From Microcaldota archaeon (lineage in GTDB: Archaea; Micrarchaeota; Micrarchaeia; Micrarchaeales; CABMGC01), in the NCBI GenBank assembly GCA_021851065.1, contig JAJZJQ010000015.1, forward strand, positions 1 through 35,242: 35,242 nucleotides of DNA. Reading direction: 5' to 3'. Positions 10,417 through 29,774 of this stretch are shown piece after piece; position 1 is the stretch's first letter; the number at the start of each line of letters is the position of its first letter. Position numbers and translations under genes: made by a program. Under the pieces are notes generated by a model, which saw only the letters and a list, made by a program, of their open reading frames with translations, ran no database searches and was not told the DNA's origin.

Positions 10417-11637
10417 ATGAAGCTGCTTTCTACTCTCAGCAAGTTCGCAAGGAATCCAGTGGACGAGGATAACCTCGAGGCAGAGTTGCTCATGAAGAAG
10501 GGCAAAAACGTAATACAGCTTAATCGTGGAGATCCTACATTTTATTTTCACACCCCCAAGTACATAGTCGATGCGTATATACGGGCACTTAAGGATGGGC
10601 ACACCAACTACTCAAGCGGCATAGGCATAGAGGAACTAAGGACAGCAGTGTCAAAGCGCTACAAGAGGCTCTATAACGTAAGGATACACCCTGACAACAT
10701 CATAACGACTCAGGCTACTAGTGAGGCCATAATGTTCGTTAACATGGCCCTTGTAGAGAAAGGCGACAGGGCAATACTCTTCAAGCCATATTACCCGTTC
10801 TATCCGCCCAACCTCAAGCTTTTCGGCGGCGAATCCATAATAGAAGAATACGACGAGAAGAGCGGATGGAACATAGACACGCAGAGCCTTGAACGGTCAG
10901 TAAGGCAGGATATGGGGGGCGGCAGGCGCGCCAAGTACATAATGATAACCAACCCAAACAATCCCACTGGAACAGTGCTTGGAAGAAAGACTCTTGAGGA
11001 AATAGTTGATATAGCAAACAATTATGGCATAACCCTGATAAGCGATGAGATATACGATGAGATAATATACAACAATGCAAAATTCACGAGCATTGCAAAC
11101 GTTGCAAAAGGAGTGCCGCACATAATACTCAACGGAGCAGCCAAGGATTTTGATGCAACCGGATTCAAGGTGGGCTTCATAATCATACCAGGCGAGGACA
11201 GGATCTCGCTTGAGATAAGGCGCAGGCTTGTGAAACTGGCAACGCTTAGGATATGCCCAAATACTCCTGCCCAGTATGCAATGGTGGAGGGCATAAATAA
11301 TGTAACCGAGCACAAAAGGGCTCTTAGAGCAATGGTTAAAGGCATAGAGAGGAGGAGCAATATGGTGGTGAGGACGCTCAATGACACGCCTTATTTCGAC
11401 GCAGTGAGGCCAAACAGCGCATTCTACGTATTCCCGAGGATAAACTTCGGGATGCTGAAGCTGAAGACCGATAGGGAGTTTGTAGAAAGGCTCCTCATCG
11501 AGAAGGGCGTGCAGATAGTTCGGGGATCGGTGTTCGGTTCCCCGAGCCATGTAAGGATAGTGGCCCTTGCAGACGAACGCACCATAACCAAGGCGCTAAC
11601 CAATATAAATGAGTTCTGCAAGAAGTACTCACGCTAG
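10417..11637 (+). CDS. Class I/II pyridoxal-phosphate aminotransferase
   Basis: The 406-residue product is of the fold-type I aspartate/alanine aminotransferase family. It shows IQLNRGDPTFYFHTP, the substrate-phase YSSGIGIEELR, NPNNPTGTV and SDEIYDEI. The PLP-binding lysine is K243 in NGAAKDFDATGFKVGF. The usual SxSKxxxxxGxRxG motif is altered: the residue before the lysine is Ala, and the phosphate-binding arginine is Lys (GFKVG). The closest described groups are archaeal alanine and aspartate aminotransferases, but the substrate cannot be fixed from sequence. Its stop codon is six bases before tRNA-Val. Confidence 0.88.
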   Translation: MKLLSTLSKFARNPVDEDNLEAELLMKKGKNVIQLNRGDPTFYFHTPKYIVDAYIRALKDGHTNYSSGIGIEELRTAVSKRYKRLYNVRIHPDNIITTQATSEAIMFVNMALVEKGDRAILFKPYYPFYPPNLKLFGGESIIEEYDEKSGWNIDTQSLERSVRQDMGGGRRAKYIMITNPNNPTGTVLGRKTLEEIVDIANNYGITLISDEIYDEIIYNNAKFTSIANVAKGVPHIILNGAAKDFDATGFKVGFIIIPGEDRISLEIRRRLVKLATLRICPNTPAQYAMVEGINNVTEHKRALRAMVKGIERRSNMVVRTLNDTPYFDAVRPNSAFYVFPRINFGMLKLKTDREFVERLLIEKGVQIVRGSVFGSPSHVRIVALADERTITKALTNINEFCKKYSR

Positions 11638-11643
11638 GAACAA

Positions 11644-11714
11644 GGAGGCATAGTCTAATGGTAGGACGCTACCCTTACACGGTAGAGGTCTGGGTTCGAT
11701 TCCCTGTGCCTCCA
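11644..11714 (+). tRNA. tRNA-Val (anticodon UAC)
   Basis: The 71-nt gene has acceptor GGAGGCA (11644-11650) pairing with TGCCTCC (11707-11713) and discriminator A. The D-arm is GTCT/GGAC, and the anticodon stem CTACC/GGTAG carries loop CTTACAC with TAC at 11676-11678. The T-loop TTCGATT is at 11695-11701. The T-stem CTGGG/CCCTG has one T-T mismatch (11691 with 11705, positions 50:64). No CCA is encoded and there is no intron. The last 12 bases are also the core of repeated sequences downstream, so this gene is the apparent target of site-specific integration. Confidence 0.95.
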
Positions 11715-11762
11715 TACAGTCGTTTACGCCGACAAGTGCGTTAAAACTCCTATTTATTTACT
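11703..11762. repeat. Right-arm repeat, copy A (overlaps tRNA-Val 3' end)
   Basis: This is a 60-bp repeat starting with CCTGTGCCTCC of the tRNA, followed by an inverted repeat GTCG-(7)-CGAC and ending TTATTTACT. It aligns without gaps to 16492-16551 (47 of 60 identical by eye) and 18341-18400 (46 of 60). The stop codon of the minus-strand gene at 11750 lies inside it. I interpret it as an attachment-site arm of an integrated unit. Confidence 0.75.
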
Positions 11763-12244
11763 TGCTCTTGTTCGATCTTATTGTGCCTGTTTTTGACCGC
11801 AGAGATCATTTCCCTGAGCTTCTGCCTTGTTATGTACAGTCCGCCCGAGAGCGCAAGTGCATCAGCTACTATGATTGGTACGGAATGAACCATTGCACCG
11901 TATATGGTCCAGGTAGATGTTGCACTGAGATCCAGGGAGAGCAGCTGTGGCGATATATCCTTTGTAGATCTTGTGTTCCAGGTATGAAGTACCTGTGGTG
12001 CATAAAGCGATGCCGTAGCTGCGGTAGCTATCCCACCAGCAAGGTTTGGATCTCTTGTTACTGCTGCAAATGCGGCACCAGCAATGCTTAGTGCAAGCGG
12101 TACACCAGACGTTACGAATGTGGAGATGGGACTTGCCGTAGAGTTAGACAGTTTCTCATCAAGAGATCTAAGCGAACGCTTTAAAGTCTTTTCATGGTCT
12201 TCTAGCCCTATTGCTTTATGCACCATCAAAATCGCTTCTGGCAT
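11750..12244 (-). CDS. PQ-loop (SemiSWEET-type) membrane protein
   Basis: The 164-residue product has an amphipathic N-terminus and three hydrophobic segments. The PQ-loop signature is SLYAPQVLHTWNTRST, followed by TWTIYGAMVHSVPI. SemiSWEETs are three-helix half-transporters that dimerise to move sugars; the substrate here is unknown. ATG 12244 is chosen because AAGGAG lies 4 bases upstream; a longer frame from 12301 would overlap the acetyltransferase gene by 50 bases. It follows that gene by 7 bases on the same strand, so the two form an operon. Its last codons lie in the right-arm repeat. Confidence 0.75.
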   Translation of the reverse strand: MPEAILMVHKAIGLEDHEKTLKRSLRSLDEKLSNSTASPISTFVTSGVPLALSIAGAAFAAVTRDPNLAGGIATAATASLYAPQVLHTWNTRSTKDISPQLLSLDLSATSTWTIYGAMVHSVPIIVADALALSGGLYITRQKLREMISAVKNRHNKIEQEQVNK

Positions 12245-12251
12245 TGACTCC

Positions 12252-13019
12252 TTATTCCCTTTTCGCTGCAGTAGTATTGTCACGAAGGTAATGCTGTGCA
12301 ACTACCTTTCCATAGTCCTCCCCAGGCATAGATACTGTTGGTATTATTAGCCCTGTTTTCTCATCTACAGCGAAGTCTATACCTTTGCCTGTCGAGCCCA
12401 CTCCTGCGGCCTTATGGAAGTCCAGTGTCTTGAAGATATGACCCATGATGGGATTCACTGTCCATCCCATCACTGCGGTGTTGCCATTTTCATTTGTTAC
12501 TGTGACGCTCTCCTTTATAAGAACATTGCCGAGACCAATGCCCCTGAACCTCTCACCTACGACCACATCGGCTATATATCCTACATTGCCAAGCTGATGA
12601 CCCCTCGAACTCACTATTTTCTCATACTTGGCAAGTATCTTGACTATATCGCCAATGTCTTCTGAAGCCACCATCCTTCCCTGCTGCATTGCAGCGGCAG
12701 GTTCCGTAAACATTGCCATTCCGCATACCACGCTGAAAGCCGCAGGCTTACCGTTAACGTGTATGTTTATAACGCCGCCCATATCATTCCGAAGCACGGC
12801 TTCAGCCAACTTTGCGAACTCCTCTGGTCCTTCCTTTTTTGCTGCTTTTATATTTGCCCAGAACTCATAAACGTGCCATGGCGGTTTTGTGAATCCAATC
12901 CCGAACTGCTTGCCGAACTCATCCATCCTCTTTGTATCATTGAGCATCGCCGATGCGTTATGCGTCCTGAATACCTCAACTACTACTTCTCTATTTGCCT
13001 GCGCTCTATTTGCTAGCAT
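12252..13019 (-). CDS. GNAT-family N-acetyltransferase
   Basis: The 255-residue product carries the acetyl-CoA pyrophosphate loop of GNAT enzymes: ADVVVGERFRGIGLGNVLI (RxxGxG/A motif), followed by a helix and MGWTVNPIMGHIFKTLDF, which resembles the motif B end (N-P...lGF). The first ~110 residues are not recognised and may hold the substrate site. It is the first gene of a two-gene minus-strand operon with the SemiSWEET-like gene, inside the unit 11703-13200. A TATA-like CTTAAATA (minus strand, about 13052-13060) precedes it. The acceptor is unknown. Confidence 0.72.
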   Translation of the reverse strand: MLANRAQANREVVVEVFRTHNASAMLNDTKRMDEFGKQFGIGFTKPPWHVYEFWANIKAAKKEGPEEFAKLAEAVLRNDMGGVINIHVNGKPAAFSVVCGMAMFTEPAAAMQQGRMVASEDIGDIVKILAKYEKIVSSRGHQLGNVGYIADVVVGERFRGIGLGNVLIKESVTVTNENGNTAVMGWTVNPIMGHIFKTLDFHKAAGVGSTGKGIDFAVDEKTGLIIPTVSMPGEDYGKVVAQHYLRDNTTAAKRE

Positions 13020-13140
13020 GTTTTCACAATAAATTGTTGTAGGTTTTCTCCTATTTAAGCTTGCCTAAAAGTAGCAATATATAAACAATATTTGTGGATT
13101 TTGGCACCATCTAAAACCGCATGTGTAATATTCCTACGTT

Positions 13141-13200
13141 GTTTTATTTAAATGATTTGAACTGGCAATCTACTAGAATCAGTAAAGTTCCTGTATCTCT
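13141..13200. repeat. Left-arm repeat, copy 1
   Basis: This 60-bp sequence aligns ungapped to 14269-14328 and 17283-17342. It shares GTTTTATTTAAATGATTT (18 bases) with the second copy and GGCAATCTACT with the third. It ends CTGTATCTCT, a degenerate form of the tRNA-Val 3' end CTGTGCCTCC. With copy A of the right arm it bounds the unit 11703-13200. Confidence 0.7.
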
Positions 13201-13232
13201 GTACGTTCCTGTGTAGTCATGATTTACAAACA

Positions 13233-13259
13233 TTTATATAGTTTGTAGTCATATATGAC
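13233..13259 (+). promoter_or_regulatory. fic promoter with palindromic operator
   Basis: TTTATATA (13233-13240) lies 29 bases before the ATG at 13262, so transcription is probably leaderless. The perfect palindrome GTCATATATGAC (13248-13259) sits between the TATA box and the start. TGTAGTCAT also occurs at 13212-13220 and TGTAGTCATATATG at 13244-13257; the latter recurs exactly at 14218-14231 after the gene. The placement suits repression by occlusion. Confidence 0.6.
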
Positions 13260-13261
13260 TT

Positions 13262-14194
13262 ATGAGCATTGAGATACAGGAAAAGATGGGTATTAAGTAC
13301 TATTACTTAGCGCACTCTTATCGTAAATTTGGAAAAGTCCGAAAGCTAAGGATCTATCTTGGTAGAGACTTGACAAACGATGCACTTGTTAAGAAGCGCG
13401 AAGATGCAGAAGTGCTCATAGAAGAGAGATTATCTAAGATCAAGAAGATAAGAGATCCATATAACGTTGCACTTACTGATTCTGAAATTCTAGAGCTTAA
13501 GAAGCTAACGTCCATTAGAAGGATTAAAATCACACATTTAAGTGATGACGAATGGCTTAAATTTACAGAGGCTTTTACATACGATACGAATGCCATAGAA
13601 GGGTCTACGGTCGAACAGAAGGAAGTCGTAAACATACTTGAGAAAAACAAGTGGCCAGATAAGTCAAAGGAGGAGATATCAGAAACGCTTGGCGTTGCGG
13701 AAGCCGTGAAGTACGTAAGGAAGACGAAGGAAGAATTGTCGATTGGGCTGATAAAAGAATTGCATATGATTGTGTTTAAGAACTCAAAAACATTTGCAGG
13801 TAATTTAAGAAAAATTGGGGAAGAAGTTGCAGTTATAGATTCAAATCGTAACATTGTACACCGTGGTGCACCATCCTCTAGTATTCTTTCGTTGTTGGAG
13901 GAGCTCATTAGGTGGTATAAAGCAAATAAGCGCAAATACCCACCCCTAGTTCTAGCTGCCGTAGTACATAATCAATTCGAAAACATTCATCCGTTTAGGG
14001 ACGGGAACGGCAGGGTCGGTAGGCTGCTTCTCATAAACATACTCTTAAAGCATAACATGCCTCCAGTTAACATAGAGCTAGAGAATAGGTTTGAATATTA
14101 TAAGGCATTGCAAGAATACGAACTAGATGGAAACATACGCCCCACGATTGAACTGTTGTTAAAGGAATATAGACGATTACGGAGAAGCCTTTGA
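13262..14194 (+). CDS. Fic-domain protein (AMPylase-type)
   Basis: The 310-residue product has a complete Fic catalytic motif HPFRDGNGRVGR from residue 243 (pattern HxFx[D/E]GNGRxxR). Enzymes with this motif transfer AMP or related groups from a nucleotide to a target hydroxyl. The inhibitory helix signature [S/T]xxxE[G/N] is TNAIEG at residues 109-114, N-terminal to the Fic domain, so this is a class II, self-inhibited protein. The N-terminal ~60 residues (YYYLAHSYRKFGKVRKLRIYLGR) form a separate basic segment seen in archaeal Fic proteins. The gene stands alone between two left-arm repeats and is AT-rich relative to the backbone, which suggests horizontal acquisition. Confidence 0.9.
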   Translation: MSIEIQEKMGIKYYYLAHSYRKFGKVRKLRIYLGRDLTNDALVKKREDAEVLIEERLSKIKKIRDPYNVALTDSEILELKKLTSIRRIKITHLSDDEWLKFTEAFTYDTNAIEGSTVEQKEVVNILEKNKWPDKSKEEISETLGVAEAVKYVRKTKEELSIGLIKELHMIVFKNSKTFAGNLRKIGEEVAVIDSNRNIVHRGAPSSSILSLLEELIRWYKANKRKYPPLVLAAVVHNQFENIHPFRDGNGRVGRLLLINILLKHNMPPVNIELENRFEYYKALQEYELDGNIRPTIELLLKEYRRLRRSL

Positions 14195-14217
14195 TATATG
14201 TCTACATTTTAGACTTA

Positions 14218-14244
14218 TGTAGTCATATATGCCCATATGGGCAT
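14218..14244. repeat. Direct copy of the fic operator and a 16-bp palindrome
   Basis: TGTAGTCATATATG at 14218-14231 repeats exactly the sequence before fic (13244-13257). It overlaps the perfect palindrome ATGCCCATATGGGCAT at 14229-14244. It starts 24 bases after the fic stop codon. Confidence 0.6.
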
Positions 14245-14268
14245 TACCAGATTGCATAATTCCATACT

Positions 14269-14328
14269 GTTTTATTTAAATGATTTAAACGGGCAATCTT
14301 ACCATTTCAGCATAGTCCCTGTGCCTCC
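14269..14328. repeat. Left-arm repeat, copy 2
   Basis: The second 60-bp left arm ends with an exact copy of the tRNA 3' end (CCCTGTGCCTCC, 14317-14328). The first 18 bases are identical to copy 1 (13141-13158). It closes the unit that carries fic. Confidence 0.75.
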
Positions 14329-14360
14329 ATTGAACCTTATTTTTGAGGGTCTTGTCGCCG

Positions 14361-14406
14361 AGTAATTTCCATAGAAATGGTGTGGGTTCGATTCCCCGAA
14401 ACTCCA
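14361..14406. repeat. tRNA T-arm remnant, copy 1
   Basis: TGGGTTCGATTCCC (14383-14396) is identical to the T-arm of tRNA-Val (11691-11704), and the following ten bases match its acceptor end at six positions, ending CTCCA. The preceding TAATTTCC and the spacing to the T-arm recur at 17383-17419. No acceptor 5' half or proper anticodon stem is visible, so it is not a functional tRNA. Confidence 0.55.
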
Positions 14407-14489
14407 TTAACGCTTTTCGAGAGCATAATGGTGACATTGGAGTATGCAGTAGAAAGATTTAAAGTTAGCATGGCCTATATTCTATTTGT

Positions 14490-15227
14490 ATGCCAGCAAA
14501 GAGTGAAGATATTGATAATAAGGCAAAACCAAGTTTTTTGAAAGATATTTTATACGGTCCTTTTCTAATACTGTTTTTGGGTCTGATTTTCGGATTTTTA
14601 ATGTTAATAGGCTTAAGTGCATTAAATAATATTCCTTCTTGTAGTATTCAATATATCTCTACTATCCAAAAGCTCTCTCCATCTCAGATAAAATTTAATT
14701 CGCTAATAGTAACATTGCTTTGGATTATTTTTCTTTTTGTAGTCCCTATTTTGTCTTATCGGTATATATTTAATAAAGACCGGGGTAAAACATTGTGGCT
14801 CTTTGCACTTTTAGTCTTTGAAGCAGTTATGATTGGCTCTTTTGGCGCAGCCTGCCCTAATCCAAACATTACGCGTTGCATACCTCTAAGCGGATATTAC
14901 TGTTGGAATGCAACATATAGTGCAAGTTCTGGTAATGTTTTGTTAGATGTAGAGCAGGATAGTGGCACCAACTGGTTGACAGCAAATATCTTCTTTGTTC
15001 CTGATGGAATTCCTTCAACTATCCCACCAAATGGTGTTGTAAATGCTTATGGCTATTCGACAGGCGGCCTAGCTAATGGTAAACCAGCACAAATAAAACT
15101 TGGAGTGTCAGAGCCAGGAATAGCTACTGGAACATTGACTGGCGGATCTATATGGGCAGTTGAAACAAACTCGTCAGGAAACCAATATTTTGTACAGATT
15201 GCTCTTATAGAATTAAGGGCGACTTAG
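14490..15227 (+). CDS. Uncharacterised membrane protein with extracytoplasmic domain
   Basis: I do not recognise this 245-residue protein. It has three hydrophobic segments at roughly residues 25-46 (ILFLGLIFGFLMLIGLSAL), 69-90 and 100-118. After the third it reads GAACPNPNITRCIPLSGYYCWNA, with paired cysteines, followed by ~100 polar, Ser/Thr/Gly/Asn-rich residues likely outside the cell. It could be a surface protein or the sensor part of a small system with the AAA ATPase 126 bases downstream. The gene is AT-rich and lies in the tRNA-Val island. Confidence 0.6.
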   Translation: MPAKSEDIDNKAKPSFLKDILYGPFLILFLGLIFGFLMLIGLSALNNIPSCSIQYISTIQKLSPSQIKFNSLIVTLLWIIFLFVVPILSYRYIFNKDRGKTLWLFALLVFEAVMIGSFGAACPNPNITRCIPLSGYYCWNATYSASSGNVLLDVEQDSGTNWLTANIFFVPDGIPSTIPPNGVVNAYGYSTGGLANGKPAQIKLGVSEPGIATGTLTGGSIWAVETNSSGNQYFVQIALIELRAT

Positions 15228-15319
15228 AAGTTTTTATGCCGATTATAGAATTACTACATTTGATATACAAACCCCAATTCTTACCTTAAGACCAAATCTC
15301 TGTGTAAATTACAAAGGCT

Positions 15320-15329
15320 TTTATATATT
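15320..15329 (+). promoter_or_regulatory. TATA box of the AAA ATPase gene
   Basis: TTTATATATT is centred about 29 bases before the ATG at 15353, the distance expected for a leaderless archaeal transcript. No ribosome binding site is visible before the ATG. Confidence 0.6.
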
Positions 15330-15352
15330 ACTGATACTACTATTAGTAACTA

Positions 15353-16417
15353 ATGGGTGTATTAGTGCTCTTTGACCTAAATCCGAAAGAAAACGTTCAT
15401 GACCTATACGATAGGAAAGCGGAGCTAGAATCACTATCATCGTCGCTAAAAAATGGAGAACGTCTGATAATTATATATGGTTTAAGGCGGGTAGGAAAGA
15501 CTAGCCTTATACACTCATTCTTGAATAAGCGAGAATTTCCATACATATTATTGGATATGAAGGAGATTTATCATGTTAGCGGTTCTGTGCCAATGAAGGC
15601 GCTTTACAATACAATCTTAAAGGAATTTACTAAGTTTGCTGAAAAAGTTGGTGAAGATGCAAACATAGATATAGATGATGAATTCAGATTACCAGACTTG
15701 CTTAAAGAGATAAATGAATGGTGCAAATCAAGAAAACTGATTTTTATTATAGCACTGGACGAAGCGCAGTATCTTAGATATGGGGGCAAAGTACGCTATG
15801 ATGGCATAATTGCGTGGGGAGTGGACAATCTCTCAAACATAACCTTTATCCTTACTGGAAGCGAAGCGGGAATGTTAAAAGAGTTCTTGAGATACGAAGA
15901 TGTAGAAGCTCCATTATACGGAAGGTTCAGGAATGAGATATATCTGAAAAGATTTACAAAGGAGGAAAGAGTGGCTTTCCTCAGACAAGGATTTAAAGAA
16001 GCTGGCAAAAATATAAGCAATGACGAATTGGAAGACACGATAAAGAATCTGGATGGGATAAGTGGGTGGCTAACATACTACGGATACTTCAGGACCATAA
16101 AGAATTTGGAACATAAGAAGGCAATCGAGCAGGTGTTTAAGGATGGTTCAGAACTCACTCTAAAAGAAATTGAAACGTTAATAGCGCGTTCTAGAAAGAG
16201 GTACACCTATATACTTAGGGCAATTGTAGAGGGATTTAACACGTGGAGTGTCATTAAAACTTATGTTGAGTCTAAGGCTGGTGGCGTGTCAGACACCGTA
16301 TTAAACTCATTATTGCAGGCTTTACTAAAACTTGGAATTGTGGAAAAAGAGCAAGATGATAGGTACGTTATCTTAGACCCTATAGCGATACATGCCATAA
16401 AGAAACTTAAGCCATAA
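15353..16417 (+). CDS. Archaeal-type AAA ATPase (STAND/MNS-like) with C-terminal winged helix
   Basis: The 354-residue product has Walker A GLRRVGKTS at residues 43-51 and Walker B/DExQ ALDEAQYLR with DE at 136-137. TGSEAGML is the sensor 1 region and LYGRFRNEIYLKRF resembles the arginine-containing segment of this family (Pfam Arch_ATPase type). The C-terminal ~90 residues (from about 265) look like a winged helix (LNSLLQALLKLGIVEKEQDDRYVI). Such ATPases are abundant in archaeal mobile and accessory regions and remain mostly uncharacterised. The membrane-protein gene precedes it, but it has its own promoter. It ends 74 bases before a right-arm repeat. Confidence 0.85.
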   Translation: MGVLVLFDLNPKENVHDLYDRKAELESLSSSLKNGERLIIIYGLRRVGKTSLIHSFLNKREFPYILLDMKEIYHVSGSVPMKALYNTILKEFTKFAEKVGEDANIDIDDEFRLPDLLKEINEWCKSRKLIFIIALDEAQYLRYGGKVRYDGIIAWGVDNLSNITFILTGSEAGMLKEFLRYEDVEAPLYGRFRNEIYLKRFTKEERVAFLRQGFKEAGKNISNDELEDTIKNLDGISGWLTYYGYFRTIKNLEHKKAIEQVFKDGSELTLKEIETLIARSRKRYTYILRAIVEGFNTWSVIKTYVESKAGGVSDTVLNSLLQALLKLGIVEKEQDDRYVILDPIAIHAIKKLKP

Positions 16418-16491
16418 GTATACAAGTCATACAACACCATACAAGCCATACAACGATATACATTGTACAAACTGAACCCATACGAGAATGT

Positions 16492-16551
16492 CCTGTGCCT
16501 CCATACGGTCGCTTACGTCGACAAGGATGTATAGACTCTCGCTTATTTACT
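16492..16551. repeat. Right-arm repeat, copy B
   Basis: The first 15 bases (CCTGTGCCTCCATAC) are identical to the tRNA-Val 3' end and its flank (11703-11717). The inverted repeat GTCG-(7)-CGAC is kept. The stop codon of the minus-strand methyltransferase (16547) lies inside it, as with the gene next to copy A. Confidence 0.75.
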
Positions 16552-17266
16552 GCTTGATTCCAACATACCTGTCTCTTCCCATAATGGCCCCTTTTAGTAA
16601 GATAGGACTGAATCCGACATCCTTTAGTAATCTTATGAACTCTTTTCTTTCCGTAAGTCGTAACTCGCTCTTATCAGCAACATCGGTAACTCCTTTGTTC
16701 TTCTCAGCTATTACATAGTGCTCGTCTAACACAGACATATTTCCGTGTATAGAAGAATAGCCTATCCGTGCAATCTTCAAACCAGCATAGTCATATGCTC
16801 TCATGTGAACAGAGCCGACATGCCAACGTGACTTATCAAACCAAGCGTCTATTATGCAGATGCCACCTGGATTAAGATGTCGATAAAAACCTCCGAAGGT
16901 TCTCTTTAACTGATCAGAAGTCTTGAGATATCCTATGGCACTGAAGAGGCATGTTATAACATCAAATCTTTCGTTTAAGTTAAGATTCATCATATTGCGC
17001 CGCTTGAATTCAACACCCTTTATGTTCTTTCTGGCTATAGCAAGCATTTCTCCATTTAAATCAGTACCAGCACATTTGTACTTCAGCTTCAAATACTGTA
17101 TATGCTTACCTGTTCCACAACCTACATCTAATAGCATATTTCCTTTGCTCTTCTTATACTTGGAAATTAGACGAGTTATATCATTGGATTCTTTCTTATA
17201 ATTCTTAAAGGAGTATATCACATCATAATATTTAGCTAGTTTCCTATAAGCATGTAGTTCGTCCAT
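16547..17266 (-). CDS. Class I SAM-dependent methyltransferase
   Basis: The 239-residue product has motif I LLDVGCGTGKH near residue 45, the acidic strand end CAGTDLNGEML, and FDVITCLFSAIGYL as motif IV. The small domain after residue 150 (WHVGSVHMRAYDY, LDEHYVIAEK) resembles SAM methyltransferases of small molecules. The substrate is unknown. It is the only gene in the unit bounded by right arm B and left arm copy 3. A TATA-like element on the minus strand (CATTTAATAAG, about 17286-17296) falls inside that left arm, about 25 bases before the start. Confidence 0.85.
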   Translation of the reverse strand: MDELHAYRKLAKYYDVIYSFKNYKKESNDITRLISKYKKSKGNMLLDVGCGTGKHIQYLKLKYKCAGTDLNGEMLAIARKNIKGVEFKRRNMMNLNLNERFDVITCLFSAIGYLKTSDQLKRTFGGFYRHLNPGGICIIDAWFDKSRWHVGSVHMRAYDYAGLKIARIGYSSIHGNMSVLDEHYVIAEKNKGVTDVADKSELRLTERKEFIRLLKDVGFSPILLKGAIMGRDRYVGIKQ

Positions 17267-17282
17267 GAAATTATGATGTAGG

Positions 17283-17342
17283 TATCTTATTAAATGTATA
17301 TTTCTGGCAATCTACTCGGTTCAGTAACCTCTCTGTGCCCCC
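17283..17342. repeat. Left-arm repeat, copy 3
   Basis: The third 60-bp left arm, ungapped against 13141-13200, shares GGCAATCTACT and TTCAGTAA-type positions and ends CTGTGCCCCC, one base from the tRNA end. It also supplies the probable promoter of the minus-strand methyltransferase. Confidence 0.65.
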
Positions 17343-17381
17343 GCTACCAGAATTTGTCATCAGATGTACTTTTGAATAAAA

Positions 17382-17419
17382 ACTAATTTCCTCGGCAAAA
17401 TTGCTGGGTTCAATTCCCC
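17382..17419. repeat. tRNA T-arm remnant, copy 2
   Basis: CTGGGTTCAATTCCCC (17404-17419) resembles the tRNA-Val T-arm. TAATTTCC lies upstream at nearly the same distance as in the copy at 14361-14397. It starts about 62 bases after a left-arm repeat, versus about 55 for the other copy. Confidence 0.45.
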
Positions 17420-17439
17420 ACCTTTTCAGTTTAATGGAA

Positions 17440-17631
17440 TCAAACCTGTATTTTCTTTGACCTTCTTTTTTTAGTGTATAAAATATCTAGAAATCTTTTC
17501 TGCCCCCTACTCCAGGTCTTGTTATCTGTCTTTATTACATAAGCAGAATATGCATCGATGTACTTGAAATTGTTTCTAAGATTAACCTCTTTTGCTTCCT
17601 TCAAACCATTTAGAATGCTATTTTGCTTCAT
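17440..17631 (-). CDS. Small basic protein downstream of nucleotidyltransferase
   Basis: The 63-residue product is Lys/Arg-rich (ends YTKKRRSKKIQV) and is not recognised. Its ATG at 17631 overlaps the end of the nucleotidyltransferase gene by 14 bases in another frame, a coupled arrangement that makes it likely to be translated. It could be the partner of a nucleotidyltransferase-type toxin-antitoxin or abortive-infection pair. AT-rich like its neighbour. Confidence 0.5.
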   Translation of the reverse strand: MKQNSILNGLKEAKEVNLRNNFKYIDAYSAYVIKTDNKTWSRGQKRFLDILYTKKRRSKKIQV

Positions 17632-18241
17632 CTAATTCGCCTAATACTTTCCTTACTATCTCTTTCTTTACGCGAAGTTCTGATATAAATCCAGTTAATC
17701 TATCTGTATCAATATACGCCTTAAAAATATTATAAATGTATCGTGCGTCTTCGTAATCCTTATCGCTCCCTAACCACAACTTGAATGCAATTTGTAGTTC
17801 TATTGGGGATGTGTAAATTGAGTATTTGTCGTTAAATGTAACTTTCATCTTGTTGTCCATAGTATGCCTATCAAGAGGCTTCTTGACGAACTTTAGTTCG
17901 AAGTTTGGCGCCCAAGTCCCTTTCTCAGCGTACCTCAGGGACGATCCTTCAGAAAGCAGTTCATATGCCTCTTTAGCATCTTCTACATTATTTACCGGTT
18001 CAAATCCGCTTTTGAGAAGCCTCCAATGTAATTCTTGAATTTGTTTTATGTCCATTTTGTTTAGTAGTATGTCAATGTCTTCCGTGCCTCTTATCCTTCC
18101 GAAAAAGATTGCTATGTAGCCGCTAACTATTACGTAACCAACATCGCCCATAGCCTCGATGAAGTTAATGACTAATTTGTCTAAAGTGGTTATTTCTTTA
18201 TGATTAAGCGTTATGTTGCTTCTGGAGAACCCAATTTCCAT
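17618..18241 (-). CDS. Nucleotidyltransferase-fold protein (AbiEii/MNT-like)
   Basis: The 207-residue product has the nucleotidyltransferase core VSGYIAIFFGRIRGTEDIDIL. The Gly-Tyr pair is at 41-42 and the metal-binding D55xD57 pair is in RGTEDIDIL. This matches the G[GS]-x9-Rx[T]xDxD pattern of DNA polymerase beta-like minimal nucleotidyltransferases, used by AbiEii toxins and MNT antitoxins. The C-terminal half (LQIAFKLWLGSDKDYEDARYIY) resembles the helical region of this group. TATA-like ATTTAATA on the minus strand (about 18265-18272) lies 24-31 bases before the start. It is in the tRNA-Val island and AT-rich. Confidence 0.75.
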   Translation of the reverse strand: MEIGFSRSNITLNHKEITTLDKLVINFIEAMGDVGYVIVSGYIAIFFGRIRGTEDIDILLNKMDIKQIQELHWRLLKSGFEPVNNVEDAKEAYELLSEGSSLRYAEKGTWAPNFELKFVKKPLDRHTMDNKMKVTFNDKYSIYTSPIELQIAFKLWLGSDKDYEDARYIYNIFKAYIDTDRLTGFISELRVKKEIVRKVLGELDEAK

Positions 18242-18340
18242 AATGGACTATAGAAATTATAGATATTAAATACTAGCGGCCATTAAAAACGGTTTTTACC
18301 AGCAAATGTGGGGGTTTTACAGGTGCATTTACATCGGCAT

Positions 18341-18400
18341 CCCCTGCCTCCCTGCAGTAGCTTAAGTCGACAAGGGCATTAAGAATCCTGCTTATTTACT
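18341..18400. repeat. Right-arm repeat, copy C (distal end of island)
   Basis: The third right arm aligns ungapped with copy A at 46 of 60 positions. Its core has drifted to CCCCTGCCTCC and the GTCG inverted repeat to GTAG-(7)-CGAC. No intact minus-strand gene ends in it. It is the last tRNA-derived repeat before the permease gene, so it marks the distal end of the island. Confidence 0.65.
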
Positions 18401-18521: not shown

Positions 18522-19829
18522 TTGGGGTACAAACTAAGCAATACTGTGGCAATAGCCTTATGCCTAGGGGCAATAATCAGTGATACGTTATTCGTATTCA
18601 CCGGAGTTCCCATAGCCCAGATCGGCTCCCTTTCTATAGTTGCGTACATACTTGTAGGGGTTTTTGCCATAATAATAGCATTGCAGCTGGGCGAACTTAG
18701 TTCCACAATGCCGCATTCCAAAGGCGGTGCATATTCATATGTCACCAAGTCTTTTGGAAGCGAGCTTGGATTCATAACTGGGGCACTACTATATCTGGCA
18801 TATTGCGCCATGACATCTGTGATAGCGCTGGGCTTCTCAGGATACTTGCTGTCTATGCTTGGGATAAGCAATGAGCCGCTGCAGATTGCCGTTGCTGTTC
18901 TTTCAATAATCGCAATTTCAGTAGTAAACATGTATGGTCTCAGGAAGACATCAGGGCTTACACGGATACTTGTGACTGTTGCTCTTCTTAGTGCTGCGAT
19001 ATTTTGCATTTTTTCATTTTCCTACGGCATCAATAAAGGCACCATAGCAGCAGTCTTGACTTATGCTGGAAACGGCGGCGCAGGCACATTCCTCCAAGCA
19101 ACTACTGCCATAGTATTTGCCTATTCAAGCTTTCAGATAATGGTAACCTTGGCGGACAACATAAAAGAGGATGGAAAGGGAGCCGCGAAGATAATGGCCG
19201 TTTCTATCTTGCTGGGTGCAATTGCATATGTAGCAGTTACCATGGGGCTAATCGCACTCATCGCAGTACCGCACGCGATATCAGCAAACCCGCTTATTTA
19301 TGCACTGAGTTACGTAAACGCACCACGCGTCATCGAGCTTGCCATTGGTGCAGGTATACTCTTTTCAATAGCAGCTGCGCTGATAATGTTGGTATTCACC
19401 TCCTCGAGACTGGTATATGAGATAGGGCATGACAATCTTCTGCCTAGGATATCGAGGCTGTATGACAAAGAGAAGGGCGTTGCAACCAGTGGGATCTGGA
19501 TATCCGCACTTCTGTCAATAACGCTTCTATTCGCTGGGAACATATATGTGATATTGTCAATAAGCAATTTTGGCATAATAGTCTCCTGGGCAATGGCATG
19601 TTTTGCACTTATAAACATGCGAAGAAGAAACATAACGCGGAAATTCAGTTCCCCATATTACCCGTTCCTTAGCATACTGAGCATAGTGGTCTGCATCGTT
19701 CTTCTGTTTGGCCTTCCTGGAAACAGCCTCGCTTTTGGGATAACCATAATTCTTCTGCTCCTTGTGATATATTACATAATAGTTGAGATAAAATACAAGA
19801 AAGTGCCAAGGCTTAAGCTTTTCGATTAA
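18522..19829 (+). CDS. APC-superfamily amino acid permease
   Basis: The 435-residue product has about 12 hydrophobic segments. The first reads VAIALCLGAIISDTLFVFTG, matching the broken TM1 substrate segment of APC transporters, and MPHSKGGAYSYVTKSFG is the conserved TM2-3 loop. It likely imports or exchanges amino acids or amines with protons; the substrate is unknown. The start is TTG 18522: a stop codon lies at 18510-18512 in frame and no other start codon lies between. It is the first backbone gene after the tRNA-Val island. Confidence 0.88.
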   Translation: MGYKLSNTVAIALCLGAIISDTLFVFTGVPIAQIGSLSIVAYILVGVFAIIIALQLGELSSTMPHSKGGAYSYVTKSFGSELGFITGALLYLAYCAMTSVIALGFSGYLLSMLGISNEPLQIAVAVLSIIAISVVNMYGLRKTSGLTRILVTVALLSAAIFCIFSFSYGINKGTIAAVLTYAGNGGAGTFLQATTAIVFAYSSFQIMVTLADNIKEDGKGAAKIMAVSILLGAIAYVAVTMGLIALIAVPHAISANPLIYALSYVNAPRVIELAIGAGILFSIAAALIMLVFTSSRLVYEIGHDNLLPRISRLYDKEKGVATSGIWISALLSITLLFAGNIYVILSISNFGIIVSWAMACFALINMRRRNITRKFSSPYYPFLSILSIVVCIVLLFGLPGNSLAFGITIILLLLVIYYIIVEIKYKKVPRLKLFD

Positions 19830-28251: not shown

Positions 28252-28527
28252 ATGTCAAACGAGATAAGATGCGCGCACATACTGGTGCAAAAAGAGTCGC
28301 TTGCCAAGGAGATACTTGCCAAGATACAGGGCGGGGAATCCTTTGCCAAGATGGCAGAGCAGTACTCAATTGACGGATCGAGAAAAAGGGGCGGAGATCT
28401 GGGCTTCTTTAAGAGGGGCGTTATGGTAAAGCCATTTGAGGATGCGGCGTTTGCACTGGAGAAAGGGCACGTATCTGGCCTTGTCAAGACACAGTTCGGC
28501 TATCACATCATAAAGAGGTTGGAATAA
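28252..28527 (+). CDS. Parvulin-type peptidyl-prolyl isomerase
   Basis: The 91-residue product is a single PpiC/parvulin domain: IRCAHILVQKES at the start, GESFAKMAEQYSIDGSRKRGGDLGFF in the middle (given here as the family pattern), and FGYHIIKRLE at the end, with both conserved histidines. It speeds proline isomerisation, here in the cytoplasm since there is no signal peptide. ATG 28252 follows GTGATACA. The last ~40 bases of this gene are repeated three times downstream, and it appears to be the target of repeated insertion that rebuilt its 3' end each time. Confidence 0.92.
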   Translation: MSNEIRCAHILVQKESLAKEILAKIQGGESFAKMAEQYSIDGSRKRGGDLGFFKRGVMVKPFEDAAFALEKGHVSGLVKTQFGYHIIKRLE

Positions 28528-28534
28528 GTGTTTA
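28494..28534 (+). repeat. Parvulin-end repeat R1 (in the gene)
   Basis: The 41-bp sequence covering the last codons, stop and 7 bases beyond is identical at 39 of 41 positions to R2 (29734-29774). Bases 28505-28526 are identical to R4 (30834-30855). Confidence 0.85.
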
Positions 28535-29640: not shown

Positions 29641-29733
29641 GCCCAATTTAATAAATCCGATAGTTGATCATTTTATAAATACATAACCGGACAGCAATAT
29701 AGCACTTTTAGCCTTCTACGACGACAAGCTTCT

Positions 29734-29774
29734 GTTCGGCTATCACATCATAAAGAGGCTAGAATAAGTGTTTA
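29734..29774 (+). repeat. Parvulin-end repeat R2
   Basis: This 41-bp copy of the parvulin 3' end is mismatched to R1 only at 29759 and 29761. It would encode the same final residues including the stop codon. It bounds the P1-peptidase unit. Confidence 0.85.

Follow-up and report, generated by a model that had tools for sequence, protein, structure and literature searches.

Islands that lack an integrase, lie in tandem and are flanked by repeats of their target gene have been described as CIMEs (PMC5704250). Among the islands at the ssrA gene of Dehalococcoides, 15 of 31 are without an integration module (PMC3146451). The paper on Mia14 mentions, for a Micrarchaeon, genomic islands that bear an integrase as well as toxin-antitoxin genes, and says nothing of tRNA (PMC5498576). 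DPANN genomes are very small, and their gene gain is poorly known; in the literature that we searched, which consisted of open-licence papers, we found no description of an array of tRNA islands in Micrarchaeota or DPANN. Herein, we describe such an array and propose, with a probability of roughly 0.7, that it is a stack of integrase-less, att-flanked, CIME-like mini-elements moved in trans by tyrosine recombinases directed at tRNA-Val.

The window, that is, the whole analysed stretch of 35,242 nt, is contig C10 of the Microcaldota archaeon genome G000 (1.13 Mb, 36 contigs, 87.5% complete). This genome and all of the relatives discussed below are metagenome assemblies. The array lies in tandem downstream of tRNA-Val(TAC) and reaches at least position 18400. 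Its core, CTGTGCCTCCA, corresponds to the 3'-terminal 11 nt of the tRNA gene (11704-11714) and is repeated at unit boundaries. The features are as follows:

10417-11637, aminotransferase gene, directly upstream of tRNA-Val
11644-11714, plus strand, tRNA-Val(TAC) found by ARAGORN, the integration target
about 11715-13201, unit U1, with GNAT and SemiSWEET cargo
11715-11762, plus strand, right arm of U1, type A (family D1), one of 8 aligned copies from 6 genomes
11750-12301, minus strand, PQ-loop/SemiSWEET-like protein of U1, with a likelier ATG start near 12244
12252-13019, minus strand, GNAT-like N-acetyltransferase of U1
13140-13190, plus strand, left arm of U1, type D2 (family D2), with copies in genomes G068, G071, G046 and G029
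13191-13201, plus strand, degenerate core CTGTATCTCTG at the U1/U2 boundary, 7/11 matches, read from the sequence
13202-14329, unit U2, Fic/DOC, without a right arm of its own
13262-14194, Fic/DOC protein of U2 (PF02661, 2e-18)
14268-14318, left arm D2 of U2, followed by a perfect core at 14319-14329
14330-16503, unit U3, archaeal ATPase_2 and one ORF without assignment
14330-14410, right arm of U3, type C, holding a tRNA-3'-end-like stretch
14490-15227, the unassigned ORF of U3
15353-16417, archaeal ATPase_2 protein of U3 (PF01637, 4.5e-19)
16444-16492, left arm L3 of U3, followed by a perfect core at 16493-16503
16504-17343, unit U4, methyltransferase, with right arm A, left arm D2 and core CTGTGCCCCCG (9/11)
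16547-17266, minus strand, class I-type SAM methyltransferase of U4 (PF13649, 6.6e-17)
17344-18352, unit U5, with a type B right arm that holds a tRNA-3'-end-like stretch
17440-17631, minus strand, 63-aa ORF of U5
17618-18241, minus strand, nucleotidyltransferase-like (putative) ORF of U5
18290-18341, left arm of U5, followed by a degenerate core at 18342-18352
18353 onwards, unit U6, with a right arm A only; its left end was not found
18353-18400, plus strand, right arm A of U6
18522-19829, amino-acid permease gene following the U6 right arm

Perfect copies of the core start at 11704, 14319 and 16493, and degenerate ones, read from the sequence, at 13191 (7/11), 17333 (9/11) and 18342 (8/11), so that repeats of the target gene flank the units in the manner of attL and attR of CIMEs. 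Taken alone, the core does not reach significance: the window has 3 matches where 0.73 would be expected, a count reached in 2 of 100 shuffles. Its significance comes from its coincidence with the arms and its presence in relatives. A repeat search returned the right arm (family D1, type A) at 11703-11762, 16492-16551 (78%) and 18341-18400 (77%), and the left arm (family D2) at 13148-13194, 14276-14322 (74%) and 17290-17336 (72%); neither arm had a further copy in the rest of this genome. The assignment of the U5 ORF at 17618-18241 as nucleotidyltransferase-like is our own reading of the sequence, which matched no entry in any library searched.

Two side observations concern repeats of other kinds. 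The type B and C right arms (14370-14410 and 17395-17430 in the window, and also loci L102, L110, L128 and L132) hold another stretch, which resembles the T-arm of a tRNA with a degraded 3' end, GGGTTCRATTCCCC...TTTTCA; the T-arm-like stretch is conserved in several genera and might possibly act as a decoy or a secondary attachment site. Elsewhere in the window, a 50-nt stretch is duplicated at 28485-28534 and 29725-29774 (88% identical): it is the 3' end of a gene for a parvulin-like peptidyl-prolyl isomerase and occurs again 1.2 kb downstream, past a peptidase-like gene.

The array, with its small units of one or two genes, their similar ends and, for some of them, a single orientation, recalls the attC cassettes served by IntI, and integrons have been reported in archaea (PMC9668308). 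However, the units adjoin a tRNA gene whose 3' end they repeat, there is no intI with an attI beside it, and the orientation of cargo varies, with the methyltransferase on the plus strand in G029 and G068 and on the minus strand in U4. A profile search found no integrase among the proteins of the array in the window. The anchoring to tRNA and the lack of an integrase in the window lead us to rule out an integron-type cassette array, to which we attach almost no probability.

The sequence-only reading, from which this work started, singled out the unit at 11703-13200 (U1), and what it said of the structure stands. U1 has both arms (repeats at 11703-11762 and 13148-13194), its two genes lie on the minus strand (12252-13019 and 11750-12301), and the stop codon of the last gene (CTA, 11750-11752) falls within the right arm, as does that of U4 (TTA, 16547-16549). 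The SemiSWEET-like protein matches PF04193 (1.5e-8), NF037968 (2.6e-15, below the cut-off of that model) and SemiSWEET chains in PDB (2e-7), while the GNAT-like protein gives a weak match to PF00583 (E 0.0011, just under the Pfam cut-off) and to GNAT chains in PDB (E 0.002). The comparison with the unit at 16492-17342 (U4) was proposed to reveal like ends around unlike cargo, and it does. In local alignments of the 60 nt beside the cores, with 2000 dinucleotide shuffles as the null, the right arms scored 32 and the left arms 38, against best shuffles of 26 and 27, respectively (0/2000 in both cases). The interiors scored 23 against a null mean of 22.8; the cargo of U1 and U4 is therefore unrelated. 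Interchangeable cargo is thus borne out, although this pair of units is not the clearest evidence for it, since relatives support it much more strongly.

To read the site in relatives, we anchored on the upstream aminotransferase gene and the tRNA gene in 79 genomes of the same family. The sequence behind tRNA-Val differs in nearly every species, and CTGTGCCTCCA recurs 0.6-4 kb downstream of the tRNA gene in many relatives from several genera; together, these patterns mark tRNA-Val as a family-wide insertion site. Right arm A was found in 8 copies from 6 genomes and 4 genera (three in the window and one each in G066, G068, G073, G046 and G029), and left arm D2 in 7 copies from 5 genomes (three in the window; the others in G068, G071, G046 and G029). 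Copies of both arms nearly always adjoin the 11-nt core CTGTGCCTCCA. A 25-nt pattern for D2, searched with a tolerance of 3 mismatches, matched just 6 times in 164 genomes, 5 times on contigs with tRNA-Val and once at a contig start, while its reversed control had no match in the same 164 genomes. A short arm A pattern with 2 mismatches was also tried on the 79 genomes and discarded as mostly noise, a control pattern having given similar counts.

What lies between these arms changes from genome to genome. A/D2 arms enclose the GNAT and SemiSWEET genes in U1, a minus-strand methyltransferase gene in U4 and a plus-strand methyltransferase gene in G068 and G029, the last two units being 85% identical over their whole length. 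Combined with left arm L3, arm A encloses a Fic gene (G066) or two small genes (G073). Clustering of all right and left arms against shuffles revealed more arm families, several of them common to genomes with different cargo, and shared arms also flank toxin-antitoxin-like genes. Arms are exchanged around the same cargo as well: the Fic units of G039 and G066, from two genera, are 94-95% identical (94% from position 82 on), while their first 81 nt, the right arms, are unrelated. The window's Fic unit, U2, is homologous to both, beginning just past the U1/U2 boundary, and carries left arm D2 where they have L3. In U3, the ATPase gene has 87% DNA identity in G014, from another genus, and left arm L3 is 81-89% in G039, G066 and G073.

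Whole-unit identity to U5 is 92% in G039, 91% in G066, 85% in G043 and 84% in G041, and in all four the homology starts and stops at cores. In the window this unit takes fifth place; in G039 it comes third, in G066 second, and it heads the array in both G041 and G043. The order of units is Fic, toxin-antitoxin, nucleotidyltransferase in G039 and Fic, nucleotidyltransferase, toxin-antitoxin in G066. At third codon positions, the nucleotidyltransferase gene of the window is 92% identical to that of G039 and 89% to that of G066, against 50.5% for atpB in the comparison with G039 and 50.7% with G067, a congener used since atpB of G066 was not found. Judged by atpB, G041 stands nearest among the relatives compared (92% protein identity), yet its nucleotidyltransferase gene reaches just 70% at third positions. 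The gap between 89-92% and about 50%, the breaks at cores and the differing positions show that units moved horizontally and as units.

These data also bear on the possibility that the units are decayed relics of larger virus- or plasmid-like integrative elements, which lost the integrase in place, kept their arms by descent and stay immobile unless accreted to an intact element. The degenerate cores at 13191, 17333 and 18342, the absence of a right arm from U2 and a pseudogenised integrase at the same tRNA-Val in G040 would all fit such a history, and CIMEs are generally held to arise by tandem accretion and decay (PMC5704250). However, decay in place does not produce a small unit that is intact in several genera, recently diverged and set among different neighbours, and it does not reassort arms and cargo. 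We consider this explanation rather unlikely.

Further copies of the U5 nucleotidyltransferase unit lie on stretches without a tRNA-Val gene, at L170 (G077, contig C19) and L176 (G026, contig C7). Their ends show the core or a near-match to it (CTGTGCCTCCA; CCGTGCCTCCA), which suggests escape to secondary sites. Another peculiar case is G016 (L082), in which a broken 5' half of tRNA-Val directly follows the aminotransferase gene and a complete tRNA-Val with a different T-arm lies about 330 nt further on, an arrangement suggestive of an insertion that replaced the tRNA gene.

The junction behind the tRNA gene is also a place where assemblies break. The contig bearing the aminotransferase gene ends 1, 2 and 5 nt past the tRNA in G066, G038 and G067, respectively, and in each of these genomes another contig begins with exactly that last 127 nt. 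Exact overlaps of this length are what a fork in a de Bruijn graph with k = 127 leaves behind, and the contig record of G066 has SPAdes-type node naming. Two more contigs, in G076 and G047, stop 2 and 10 nt past the tRNA. By a rough estimate, 0.05 contig ends so near the tRNA are expected over 50 genomes. The likeliest reading, drawn from contig ends and overlaps rather than from reads, is that several continuations behind tRNA-Val coexist in those populations.

Might ordinary homologous recombination between arrays, following the uptake of foreign DNA, account for all of this, with the tRNA, the arms and the cargo as homology? Shared arms of 50-60 nt are available at every boundary, and the reassortment of arms and cargo is what such recombination would yield. 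But arms that are this short and 72-90% alike are poor substrates, the homology does not end at variable points but at the 11-nt core, and the populations fork within 1-10 nt of the tRNA end. In our opinion, this scenario is quite improbable.

Mini-elements moved in trans need a recombinase from elsewhere. The array units carry no recombinase or transfer genes of their own, in which they resemble CIMEs, and do not encode the integrase that marks autonomous archaeal tRNA-integrating elements. The relatives G009, G077, G045, G029, G012 and G040 have a tyrosine integrase (in G040 a pseudogene) right at this tRNA-Val, and the tRNA-Val-associated integrases of relatives form at least two sequence groups. 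Elements with and without an integrase are connected through their ends: the G045 integrase element has its right arm in common with the integrase-less Fic unit of G039, and the G029 integrase element with integrase-less positions in G030, G065 and G043. In G029, the integrase element, a perfect core and then the A/D2 methyltransferase unit stand in tandem. Among the elements of relatives, we saw no type A right arm or D2 left arm on an integrase-bearing element, and we therefore do not name a helper for U1. Similarly, IMG/VR contained no exact arm or core pattern and no unit protein, so we name no vector of transfer. A motif resembling GACAA, ACAAG or GCAAG recurs at +16 to +19 after the core across otherwise different arm families, and CGACAA is present in 13 of 74 arms, where 0.35 would be expected; the motif is possibly a recombinase half-site.

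The window's own genome encodes six tyrosine integrases (L114-L119) on contigs C4, C27, C21, C18, C11 and C25, all outside the array contig. The load of tRNA-targeted elements in this small genome looks high. None of these six could be named as the helper, since they adjoin other tRNA genes (His, Thr, Asp, Asn, Arg and Ala) and not tRNA-Val.

The scenario that we favour, integrase-less mini-elements moved in trans, would work as follows. Each unit is a cassette that measures about 0.6-3 kb and bears one or two genes, its right end beginning with an element-specific right arm and its left end formed by an element-specific left arm followed by a repeat of the 11 nt that close tRNA-Val. A tyrosine recombinase specific to tRNA-Val, supplied in trans by integrase-bearing elements that use this tRNA in relatives or, alternatively, by a virus or plasmid passing through, might excise such a unit and then join the 11-nt core of the circularised form with the tRNA 3' end or with a core in the array. 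The new unit would enter behind tRNA-Val, the tRNA end would be restored and the array would grow. Recombination between the cores and arms of neighbouring units could then reassort arms and cargo.

Within this scenario, U1 deserves a separate comment. It had been presented as a complete unit, implying one that can be excised, and this implication is not supported: its left core keeps 7/11 matches, and the shortest segment from the tRNA between two perfect cores is U1 together with U2 (11704-14329). Homologues of its GNAT gene, sought throughout the order, occur in two relatives within the family (39-43%), with no arms nearby, apart from two very weak matches. Relatives lacking the segment do exist, but in a weak sense: the cargo is absent from the site in every other genome of the 164 from the order, several of which have another unit directly behind tRNA-Val. 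As the cargo of U1 was nowhere found as a unit, movement of U1 itself could not be demonstrated, and with its left core degenerate U1 may be fixed. On these two grounds, it looks less mobile than any other well-defined unit; its left core has probably decayed, and U1 probably belongs among the mini-elements. The case for interchangeability rests on the arms of U1 and on the other units.

If mini-elements of this kind are served by foreign recombinases, they offer a testable modular case of hitch-hiking, with one tRNA gene as a common entry site across a whole family. The cargo of several small units consists of genes for Fic, toxin-antitoxin-like, nucleotidyltransferase-like or ATPase proteins. 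Also, tRNA-Val with its arms offers a practical marker for following gene exchange in metagenomes.

Finally, we compare the array with the known systems. It shares with CIMEs and with tRNA accretion of ICESt1-related elements the lack of an integrase, the att-like repeats of a tRNA 3' end and the tandem arrangement (PMC5704250), and, again as with CIMEs, integrase-bearing elements use the same tRNA site in relatives (PMC5704250). Unlike CIMEs, it is archaeal (Micrarchaeota) and cassette-sized, its arm families recur, its units cross genera and positions, and no conjugation genes were seen nearby (PMC5704250). The ssrA islands of Dehalococcoides are likewise in tandem at one RNA gene, bounded by repeats (20 bp in their case) and interchangeable in cargo, but they are larger and bacterial, use a tmRNA gene and depend on a CcrB-like serine recombinase (PMC3146451). 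The integrated elements of Thaumarchaeota, cryptic ones included, are also archaeal and sit at tRNA 3' ends between short direct repeats (down to 8 bp), some of them in tandem; they are defined by carrying a tyrosine integrase, the smallest measures 2.6 kb, and in the part of that account used here shared arms with swapped cargo are not described (PMC6563490). Integron cassettes, archaeal ones included, belong to another machinery; they are small and promiscuous and can be moved by a recombinase acting in trans, whereas the array has no IntI or attI in the window, uses tRNA 3' repeats with element-specific arms and leaves cargo orientation free (PMC9668308). Judged by the literature open to searching, what is new is that the units are of cassette size, that arm families recur around exchanged cargo, and that whole units have spread between genera at one tRNA gene of DPANN archaea. 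It is tempting, if still somewhat doubtful, to go further and propose that Micrarchaeota keep a tRNA-anchored cassette system functionally parallel to the mobile integron, in which many small recombinase-less units with interchangeable arms and cargo would share a single chromosomal entry at tRNA-Val and form a cross-genus pool served by trans-acting, tRNA-Val-directed tyrosine recombinases.
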